In this document: one piece after another, positions 6,394 to 18,452 of the stretch
How positions within the stretch are numbered: the stretch's first letter is position 1
Layout: each line of letters begins with the position of its first letter
Assembly: GCA_016203305.1 (NCBI GenBank)
Contig: JACQMY010000012.1
Span: 1-40,356 of the forward strand
Direction: 5' to 3'
Source: Candidatus Woesearchaeota archaeon
GTDB taxonomy: Archaea > Nanobdellota > Nanobdellia > Woesearchaeales > ARS49
Length of the DNA stretch: 40,356 bases
Position numbers and translations under genes: made by a program
Notes under the pieces: model-generated
What the model saw: only the letters and a program-made list of their open reading frames with translations
Databases searched by the model: none
Told to the model about the DNA's origin: nothing

Positions 6394-7053
6394 CTATCTT
6401 CTTCTGAAGAATTTCGCTTGGCGTGCGAGTTCTTCTTCCAAGGCAGGTTCTTGGTTTACAACGATGTAGCCAAGTGGCAAGGGGTCTGTTGCCGTTGATC
6501 TGTGACCAAATGTTTCGTAGAGGAGTGATGTCGGGTGCAAATGCATATGGTGTACGATTGCAACAACTGGTATTCTTTCGGCGTAGGCGCTACGTATTGC
6601 TTGTCCGAGGAAGAGTTGGCGCAGCGGTTGTGCAATGGCTTCTTCTATGACTGTTGGATTCTCTGTTGTCATTGCGTTGCGTAGCTCTCCTGCTGCTTTG
6701 TATGCTGCTTTTTCGAGAGGTCCTGTTGGCAGTTTTCCTGTGCGGAGTTCTAGTGTTTGCTCGAGTCCGTGTTTTTGTCTGAATGCTCTGAAGTATGCTT
6801 CTCTCCAGCCTTTTAGCCGGGCGGTTGTCGTGCGTTCGAGGTCGCCTATTGGGGAATCAGTGTATAGTTCGTGTACCAAAATTCTTGGTTCTAGTGCATA
6901 GATGAGTTCTAATTGTGCCGCGGCATGCTCGGCGTTGTTCGGCATTTCTCCGATTACTGCAACTTCTATCGGACGTGCTTGTACTCGGTCTTCACAATGG
7001 CGGAATCCGTATTTGTTTCTGCGCGCCCATTGTTTGACTTGTTCAAGGTCCAT
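6394..7053 (-). CDS. Hypothetical protein
   Basis: 219 aa ORF with IEVAVIGEMPNN...ILVHELYTDSPIGDLERTT; family not confidently recognised. Confidence 0.65.
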   Translation of the reverse strand: MDLEQVKQWARRNKYGFRHCEDRVQARPIEVAVIGEMPNNAEHAAAQLELIYALEPRILVHELYTDSPIGDLERTTTARLKGWREAYFRAFRQKHGLEQTLELRTGKLPTGPLEKAAYKAAGELRNAMTTENPTVIEEAIAQPLRQLFLGQAIRSAYAERIPVVAIVHHMHLHPTSLLYETFGHRSTATDPLPLGYIVVNQEPALEEELARQAKFFRRR

Positions 7054-15878: not shown

Positions 15879-17156
15879 ATGGCAAAAGCAAAACCACACT
15901 TGAACATTGTATTTGTAGGTCACGTTGACCACGGTAAATCGACGACTGTAGGTCGTTTGTTGTTTGACGCAGGTACTATTGATGAGCAGACCATGCGTAA
16001 GTTGAAGGAGAAGGCAGAGGAACTTGGCAAGGGCGGTTTTGAATTCGCTTTCGTTATGGACTCTTTGAAGGAAGAGCGTGAGCGTGGAGTTACTATCGAC
16101 CTTTCGCACAAGAAGTTTAGCACGCAAAAGTATGACTACACTATTATTGATGCGCCAGGTCACAAGGACTTTATCAAGAACATGATTACTGGTGCGTCTC
16201 AGGCTGACGCTGCGGTTCTGGTTGTTGGTTCTGAGGGTATTCAGGCTCAGACAAAGGAGCATGCTTTCTTGTGTAAGACGCTTGGTGTTGGTCAGATCAT
16301 TGTTGCTTGTAACAAGCAGGATTTGAACAAGTACGATCAGGCAAAGTTTGAAGCCACCAAAAAGGCAGCTCAGGACTTGATCAAGAGCGTTGGTTACAAG
16401 GTTGAGAACGTGCAGGTCGTTCCGATTGCTTCATATCCTGGAGAGAACGTTGTGAAGTCTTTGGGCAACATGAAGTGGTACACTGGTCCGACTTTGCTTC
16501 AAGCTTTGGACAACTTGTCTGTTCCTCAGAAGCCGACAAACTTGGCATTGCGCTTGCCGATCCAGGATGTTTACAACATTACGGGTATTGGTGTCGTTCC
16601 TGTTGGTAAGATTGAGACTGGTATTTTGAAGATTGGCCAGAAGGTCGTCTTCATGCCGGGTCCTGCTGGCAAGGGTGTTACAGGCGAAGTTAAGACTGTT
16701 GAGATGCACCACGAGCAGATGCAGGAAGCAGAGCCAGGGGACAACGTTGGATTCAACGTGCGTGGTGTTGAGAAGAAGGACATCAAGAGGGGAGACGTTG
16801 TTGGTCCAGCTGACAACCCTCCTACTGTGGCTGTTGAGTTCACCGCAAACATGATCGTGCTCAACCATCCGACTGTTGTGACTGTTGGTTACACTCCTGT
16901 GTTCCACATTCACACCGCTCAGGTTGCGTGTCAGATTACCGAGATTGTGAAGAAGATCAACCCTGCTACAGGCGAGACTTTGGCGGACCATCCTGACTTT
17001 ATCAAGAACGGTGACGCGGCTGTTGTTAAAATCAAGCCGATGCAGCCACTTGTTATTGAGAAGGTCAAGGAATTCCCGCCTTTGGGCAGGTTTGCTGTTC
17101 GCGACTCCGGAAACACAGTCGCGGCCGGTATGTGCATTGACTTGGTCAAGAAGTAA
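15879..17156 (+). CDS. tuf: Translation elongation factor 1-alpha
   Basis: [33 protein letters not shown] motifs; full length. Confidence 0.98.
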
Positions 17157-17178: not shown

Positions 17179-17490
17179 ATGCAAAAGGCAAGAATCAAGT
17201 TGGCAAGTGTAGACATCGACAAGTTGAACCAGACTTGTGCGTTTATTAAAGATATTTCTGACAAGACTGGTGTTGAGATGCGCGGTCCGATTCCTTTGCC
17301 TACCAAACGTTTGAAGCTTTCTACAAGGCGTGCTCCGGGCGGCCGTGGTTCTGCTACTTGGGAGCGTTATGAGATGCGTGTTCACAAGCGCATGATTGAT
17401 CTTGGCTTGGACGAGCGCGCTTTGCGTTTGGTCATGCGTATTCCTGTTCCTGAAGGTCTTAACATCGAGATTGAGATGATCGATGCGTAA
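17179..17490 (+). CDS. rpsJ: Small ribosomal subunit protein S10
   Basis: [16 protein letters not shown]...[40 protein letters not shown]; follows EF-1alpha as is usual in archaea. Confidence 0.97.
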
Positions 17491-17687
17491 ATTTTGATCT
17501 CAATCTCGACTGTGATCGACAATGCGTTCAACTATTGGTTATTGTGGCGCATCGATCGACACATCGAAATCGAAATGATCGATGCATAATTCTAGCATTC
17601 GATTTCGAGTGTGCTCGGAAATCCGAACAATTAGTTATGGTTCTTGCGGATTTCCGATACATCGAGATTGAGCTGATCGATGCGTGA
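17462..17687. repeat. Tandem repeats of the rpsJ 3' end with paired hairpins (E2)
   Basis: Copies at 17462-17490, 17561-17589, 17659-17687 ([27 protein letters not shown]); hairpins 17465-17477/17497-17509, 17564-17574/17598-17608, 17615-17625/17647-17657. Confidence 0.95.
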
Positions 17688-17738: not shown

Positions 17739-18452
17739 ATGCGTGTCGATGCGGTTGTTTACGATTTGGATAATACTCTGGTTGATTTTCATACAATGAA
17801 GCGTCAGTCTGTTGATGCCGCTTTGGACAAAATGATCGAGCGTGGTTTGCCAGTGAACAAGTCAGAGGCTTGGTGTATTGTTGATGAGGTGTATAGGAAT
17901 CATGGCTGGGAGGATCCTTTGTTGTTCTGGCATGTTGCAGAGTATGCAGGCATTAGGAAAGAAGTGCAACTTGAGCGTTTCGCACAGATGGGTAAGACTG
18001 CATATCGCAGACGGCAGCGTGATTTTCTTCATCCTTATGAGGGTGTTGTTGAAACGCTGGATGGCCTGAAGGAGTTGAATGTGCGGTTGGCAATTCTTTC
18101 TGATGCTCCTCGTTTGAAGATTTTTGATCGTTTGTGTGATACGGGGTTGGAGCCGTATTTTGAGGATAGTGTTGTTGGTGGAGATGATGGGGGGCATTTG
18201 CAAAAGCCTTCCGCAGAGGCTTTCCAGCGGGTGTTGTCTGTTTTGGAGCGTGATTCTCCGCAGGGTGTGTTGATGGTTGGCGATCATCCAGTGCGCGATA
18301 TTCTTGGCGCTAAAAATTATGGGTTTGGAACCGCGTGGGCCAAGTATGGTTTTGTTCCAAAATTACAGCAGGATGTCATTCCGTTAACGCGTGCGGATTA
18401 TACTTTAGAAACGCCCACTGACGTGTTGGAGATTGTGCGCGGGTCTTGTTGA
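17739..18452 (+). CDS. HAD-superfamily hydrolase
   Basis: VVYDLDNTLVDF, AILSDAP, KPSAEAF, MVGDHPVRDILGAKNYG. Confidence 0.93.
   Translation: MRVDAVVYDLDNTLVDFHTMKRQSVDAALDKMIERGLPVNKSEAWCIVDEVYRNHGWEDPLLFWHVAEYAGIRKEVQLERFAQMGKTAYRRRQRDFLHPYEGVVETLDGLKELNVRLAILSDAPRLKIFDRLCDTGLEPYFEDSVVGGDDGGHLQKPSAEAFQRVLSVLERDSPQGVLMVGDHPVRDILGAKNYGFGTAWAKYGFVPKLQQDVIPLTRADYTLETPTDVLEIVRGSC

Follow-up and report, generated by a model that had tools for sequence, protein, structure and literature searches.

Tyrosine-integrase elements that enter the 3' ends of genes leave CIME remnants. Such elements have been described at tRNA 3' ends (PMC3293823). In archaea, many tRNA genes contain introns that are related to one another at positions of the anticodon loop, as described in the work of Fujishima 2010 on archaeal tRNA intron transposition (cited in PMC3293823). 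Two further systems are comparable: the gene cassettes of integrons, in which attC recombines with attI through IntI and for which archaeal examples have been reported (PMC9668308), and the ends of IS200/IS605 and REP/REPIN elements, which go together with Y1 (HUH) transposases (PMC6006769).

We analyzed a stretch of 40,356 nucleotides, here called the window, from a contig of Woesearchaeota with the gene order tuf-rpsJ-HAD hydrolase (Table 1). As the earlier note had reported, the last 29 nt of rpsJ, the gene for ribosomal protein S10, occur three times at spacings of 99 and 98 bp, and all three copies encode IEIE[M/L]IDA-stop. Both downstream copies run in frame to their own stop, and the identity among the copies is 79% and 88% over 34 nt. 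The perfect 13-bp inverted repeat of unit 1 is present and the corresponding pair of unit 2 is complementary, as had been claimed. The three linked stem changes between the two units all fall at synonymous positions of IEIE. In unit 1, the TGT that precedes the second hairpin finds its ACA partner in its own terminus copy in the circular form and in the next copy in the array. Neither an arm nor a second hairpin follows copy 3, which supports the suggestion that this copy is the ancestral gene end.

Table 1. Features of the rpsJ locus in the window, with the unit-bearing genomes and the loci of hairpin-containing tRNA introns in Woesearchaeales.
Feature	Position	Strand	Basis or remark
Imperfect 30-nt in-gene repeat, copies 225 nt apart	6400..6900	-	25/30; generic terminal-repeat scan
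EF-1A (tuf)	15879..17156	+	ORF translation; upstream neighbor, marker of conserved tuf-rpsJ order
rpsJ (ribosomal protein S10), current gene	17179..17490	+	ORF; Pfam PF00338, E=7e-26; 3' end is the unit 1 terminus
Unit 1, 99 bp	17462..17560	+	S10 terminus, stop, spacer, arm and second hairpin
S10 terminus copy 1, in use	17462..17490	+	Sequence comparison
Arm 1	17497..17509	+	Reverse complement of 17465-17477, 13/13
TGT	17511..17513	+	Complement of the terminus-initial ACA; sequence, circular fold
Second hairpin, unit 1	17514..17557	+	GATCG-ACA-ATGCG / loop / CGCAT-CGATC; folding
Unit 2, 98 bp	17561..17658	+	Sequence comparison, circular fold
S10 terminus copy 2	17561..17589	+	Every difference from copy 1 synonymous
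Arm 2	17598..17608	+	Reverse complement of 17564-17574
Second hairpin, unit 2	17615..17657	+	TCGGAAATCCG / loop / CGGATTTCCGA; folding
S10 terminus copy 3	17659..17687	+	No arm or hairpin behind; probable ancestral gene end
HAD-family hydrolase	17739..18452	+	Pfam PF00702; downstream neighbor, outside the units
Unit-bearing genomes (1)			G000 (window), G004, G006, G016, G049, G050, G060, G119, G124, G129
Unit-bearing genomes (2)			G132, G135, G136, G145, G149, G152, G153, G185, G186, G195
Unit-bearing genomes (3)			G210, G240, G255, G275, G290, G291, G297, G343
tRNA-intron hairpin loci, Woesearchaeales			L310, L313, L317-L319, L322-L326, L336, L344, L349, L363, L372, L378

The folding of the repeated region was stronger than that of all 200 dinucleotide shuffles, both as RNA (z -4.8) and as single-stranded DNA of the other strand (z -4.9). 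Among 1125 open frames of the window and 41 related loci, an in-frame terminal duplication was confined to rpsJ, apart from one repeat within a gene. No integrase-like gene was seen by inspection among the window ORFs read, and a BLAST search of the window's own genome returned no convincing further copies of the units.

The survey of rpsJ covered 353 draft genomes of the order Woesearchaeales, with the loci read in gene orientation. A second or third S10 end was found downstream of the gene in at least 28 of the 353 genomes, representing 13 families; a single S10 end is the state of most surveyed loci, and units are absent in many relatives. The number of units in the 3' regions of rpsJ thus varies from 0 through 1 and 2 to at least 3, each unit with its own S10 terminus, as had been predicted for stepwise insertion. 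The spacing from terminus to terminus is mostly 85-125 bp. Three copies were seen in G006 through the overlap of two contig ends, and at least three units of 96 bp are located at a contig end in G240. Some of the older ends are truncated or no longer possess a stop (G135, G149 and G186), as expected for displaced ends.

The units follow a common plan, consisting of an S10 terminus, its stop, a spacer, an arm complementary to that terminus and a second hairpin, followed by the older terminus. Most unit-bearing genomes contain what we call type A, in which CC-TGA and a 9-nt segment are followed by the S10 end, the stop, the spacer, the reverse complement of the 9 nt and then GAATGG-CCAG-stem-CGCTG, before the CCTGAAGG of the older end. 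The signature of the second hairpin in this type is GACCAG-stem-CGCTG|CCT. Type B comprises the window and G006; its helix on the crossover side is ACA/TGT instead of CC/GG, the hairpin flanks differ and the type A signature is absent. The plan shared by the two types does not in itself imply that their sequences are homologous.

Between copy 1 and the downstream copies in the survey genomes, 123 codon differences are synonymous and 8 are non-synonymous. Of random single changes, about 19% would be expected to be synonymous; the observed ratio is somewhat flattered by a copy search that relied partly on codon pattern and so favored synonymous change. In G290, all 16 changed codons over 29 codons are synonymous, most of them outside the codon pattern used in the search. 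Since the differences from copy 1 are almost only synonymous, the displaced copies must have diverged while they were still coding.

The arm of type A pairs with the start of the terminus of its own unit, with a summed score higher than in all 20,000 permutations (p<=5e-5), and among the 10 units with differing scores, pairing with the own terminus was better than with the next one in 8. Both hairpins covary. The helix formed by the arm, P1, contains 19 two-sided changes, and its covariation was reached in none of 500 shuffles; the same result (0/500) was obtained for the second hairpin. Those varying P1 pairs that changed on both sides occupy synonymous positions in codons for Glu, Gly and Leu. 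When units were closed as circles, the two hairpins abutted at the junction and formed one rod, with a mean z of about -3 for the circular folds. The pairing with the own arm and the circular folds reveal a folded site with halves that match inside the circular unit, which is the logic of attC, where a neighbor supplies one half in an array.

Empty and filled sites could be compared within one genus. The distance from the rpsJ stop to the start of the downstream tRNA-like sequence is 51 bp and 126 bp in the unit-free genomes G128 and G134, respectively. In G135, which carries a unit, the tRNA-like start lies 159 bp from the rpsJ stop and 70 bp from the stop of the displaced copy. Entry of the unit is thus upstream of the old gene end, in agreement with the earlier note. 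The downstream tRNA is common to the filled and the empty loci, and the displaced old end adjoins the ancestral flank. The end of the target gene is duplicated at both borders of the units.

Variable unit number, synonymous divergence, covariation with the own terminus and the empty and filled sites all support the suggestion that units of about 99 bp were inserted stepwise and rebuilt the S10 terminus each time. We interpret the units as miniature site-specific insertion cassettes that replace the coding end of rpsJ, a reading to which we assign a probability of roughly 0.6; the mobility and mechanism of the units, and the assumption that type B of the window works like type A, are what we infer from these patterns. 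According to this model, cassettes of about 90-140 bp, rarely with toxin-antitoxin genes, would enter the coding end of rpsJ. The terminus of the unit would replace that of the gene, and the old end would be pushed downstream and decay. The unit would move as a circle in which the two hairpins meet to form a single rod, and crossover would take place at the junction, where the CC or ACA of the terminus would be paired to the GG or TGT that precedes the second hairpin. Recognized by its structure, the circular unit would recombine as a folded single strand with the end of rpsJ, at CC or ACA, by means of an enzyme supplied in trans, with a logic like that of attC or of IS200/REP-type ends. Repeated insertion would produce arrays, and drift would produce eroded old ends.

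Three genomes carry genes between two S10 ends. In G290 and G291 these are HicA and HicB-like genes, with a broken HicA in the latter genome, and in G275 they belong to DUF433 and DUF5615. No integrase gene is present in the cargo of these three genomes. The right junctions of the three cargo-bearing insertions have no clear arm or hairpin, and the insertions may therefore represent a different event, although we consider a link to the small units likely. The loci of these toxin-antitoxin genes are L257, L258 and L256.

Toxin-antitoxin cargo between S10 ends in three genomes would also be consistent with classical integrative elements. In this alternative, a tyrosine integrase acts on double-stranded DNA at the 3' end of rpsJ, and the repeated termini are attL/attR scars and att-flanked remnants comparable to the CIMEs of Streptococcus. 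Gene 3' ends are typical targets of such elements, the incoming att restores the gene, and tyrosine recombinases are present in many of the genomes. However, these recombinases (PF00589) are common without being associated with the units, and the 100% complete genome G004 contains a unit but has no PF00589 match. The units are uniform in size and tiny, and none of them contains an integrase. A double-stranded core requires inverted arms that directly adjoin the crossover. In the present case, by contrast, the partner of each side is a distant segment within the same unit, and covarying hairpins are not expected to persist in deletion scars. No viral contig with the S10 terminus as attachment site was found in a scan of IMG/VR, which speaks against this explanation, and we consider it unlikely. 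The six matches to the S10 terminus in IMG/VR were all in unrelated coding regions and were rejected. Of the analogy to att sites drawn in the earlier note, the rebuilding of the terminus holds, but the classical att site does not, given that there is no integrase and that no inverted arms flank the crossover directly; the logic is rather that of a folded single-strand site.

The search for other enzymes was likewise negative. None of 44 genomes contained an integron integrase above the TIGR02249 cut-off, and the best matches skipped the IntI-specific segment at about positions 183-236; an integron-type enzyme could act from elsewhere. The Y1 transposase (PF01797, Y1_Tnp) showed no association, being present in 13 of 27 hairpin-rich genomes versus 17 of 37 other genomes. 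The single-contig genome G035 contains the dispersed hairpin described below and no Y1_Tnp.

Replication accidents are another alternative. The terminus of a hairpin-prone gene would be copied, and the matched arm created, through template switching and tandem duplication. This would explain why the arms are reverse complements of adjacent sequence, and quasi-palindrome correction would be able to keep the stems perfect. The near-identical units in some arrays (G210, G240 and G185) can be explained by plain tandem duplication and count against the cassette reading. We nevertheless regard this explanation as distinctly improbable, because the displaced copies diverged while coding, the second hairpin with its conserved flanks occurs in many genomes and also at unrelated loci, and the recurrence in 13 families concerns one gene only among the genes scanned.

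The occurrence of the type A hairpin beyond rpsJ was analyzed with a covariance model, R1, of the type A arm and second hairpin, for which E-values are rough and into which AGG/CCT is partly built. The rpsJ units matched with E-values of 1e-17 to 3e-10, and weaker hairpin matches were obtained elsewhere. Rule-based classes divided 76 of these dispersed matches into 16 in tRNA introns, about 35 beside Shine-Dalgarno sites of likely ORFs, 9 at tRNA 3' ends (about 12 by eye, some of them in tandem) and 16 others. In a phylum sample of 318 genomes, 37 of the 38 hairpin-positive genomes belong to Woesearchaeales, suggesting that the dispersed matches are unlikely to be noise. A second adjoining hairpin with an arm of at least 8 bp was present at 33 of the 76 dispersed copies, as compared to 1.6% of random positions. 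R1 matches in G120 (contigs C56 and C60) and G152 (contig C29) were rejected as type A members; the A/T stem alone matched and Y1_Tnp genes adjoin, and these matches are probably IS200-type ends.

Several of the tRNA cases were identified by Aragorn as introns of the anticodon loop. In tRNA genes for Glu, Val, Gly, His, Met and others, the hairpin makes up the body of the anticodon-loop intron, always in one orientation. This does not imply splicing of the rpsJ units, which have the antisense orientation. Tandem units of 60-70 bp with the plan of the rpsJ arrays were observed at tRNA 3' ends in L308 (1501-1607) and L382 (601-699). At Shine-Dalgarno sites, the hairpin has one AAAGGAGG on each side and the complementary UCCUUUU between them (L340, L346, L350, L361, L374, L375 at 601-631, and others), and it could in addition be an RNA switch that controls translation. 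Around position 1501 of L321, a 53-nt exact direct repeat of the start of a dehydrogenase-like gene flanks one hairpin unit, a recent-looking insertion as judged from the repeat.

The orientation of the hairpin tracks AGG on one strand rather than transcription, being sense at Shine-Dalgarno sites and in tRNA introns and antisense at tRNA 3' ends and rpsJ. AGG/CCT borders and GGC/GCC outer pairs were seen, both of which the search model itself includes. In 52 of 67 parsed copies, which are related and do not represent 52 independent events, the strand in rpsJ sense has A opposite C at the second outer pair and the other strand has G opposite T, so that the antisense strand folds better. A conserved 3'-end structure of the rpsJ mRNA with a role in stability, termination or autoregulation, the alternative offered in the earlier note, would account for the strong folding and covariation but is very improbable and fits less well, since the distribution is patchy, the repeated termini are left unexplained, no Rfam match above the gathering score was obtained, the dispersed copies are oriented by AGG on one strand whatever the direction of transcription, and it is the antisense strand of rpsJ that carries the wobble pairs.

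An extension of the cassette reading, to which we give slightly less than even chances, is that Woesearchaeales contain two-hairpin "rod" elements of 60-110 nt, which would insert 3' of AGG via a folded single-stranded DNA circle and carry the stretch of the gene that they interrupt. They would regenerate rpsJ ends, tRNA 3' ends and Shine-Dalgarno sites and create or occupy tRNA introns, and their arrays would serve as capture sites, also for toxin-antitoxin genes. If the cassette reading is right, the coding end of an essential ribosomal gene is a capture site for miniature cassettes with replacement termini, which would be a novel way of entering genes that are essential. Through its dispersed relatives, a single DNA hairpin would be tied to the gain of tRNA introns, to insertions at tRNA ends and, at Shine-Dalgarno sites, to new 5' leaders. 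How tRNA introns have spread in archaea, a long-standing question, could then be tested directly, and a route would be provided to seek a recombinase in DPANN archaea.

The data suggest a type of miniature mobile DNA that has not been described before and that repairs the gene it enters, and a search of the open-access literature yielded no paper on rpsJ or Woesearchaeota elements of a comparable kind, in agreement with the initial remark that no such element was described. The units were not classed as integron cassettes, IS200/REP elements or integrase elements, because a defining feature of each was looked for and not found. Their standing as a new kind would be lower should the enzyme that moves them turn out to belong to a known family.

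By analogy, the units may act like a blend of an integron cassette and an IS200/REP element. Like integron cassettes, they are tandem head-to-tail units with arrays and empty loci at one site, their structure is kept while the sequence varies, and toxin-antitoxin cargo is occasional; as in attC, the folded hairpin is imperfect and its halves match perfectly only in the circular cassette. Unlike these cassettes, they have no GTTRRRY/RYYYAAC core but a junction of G|CCTGA (type A) or ACATCGA (type B), the crossover at CC or ACA lies within the rpsJ frame and the gene terminus is carried along, and IntI was absent above the cut-off. They share with IS200/IS605 and REP elements two short imperfect hairpins, a single-strand polarity and many small dispersed copies. 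A fixed short motif at each putative cut side (here AGG, which together with CCT is partly in the search model), guide-paired at the hairpin foot, may be a further resemblance. Type A differs from these in having AGG instead of GT[AG]G, in that one hairpin matches the host target, and in the lack of association with Y1_Tnp. As with tyrosine-integrase elements, arrival of the unit restores the end of the gene while the old one is displaced downstream, with stepwise tandem accretion, but the units are about 100 bp in size, have neither an integrase nor a classical att core, and pair through hairpins within the unit. Like the introns of Fujishima 2010, the type A hairpin occurs in anticodon-loop introns of many tRNA genes; in contrast to transposed tRNA introns, it is also found at Shine-Dalgarno sites, tRNA 3' ends and rpsJ, in an orientation set by a DNA motif.
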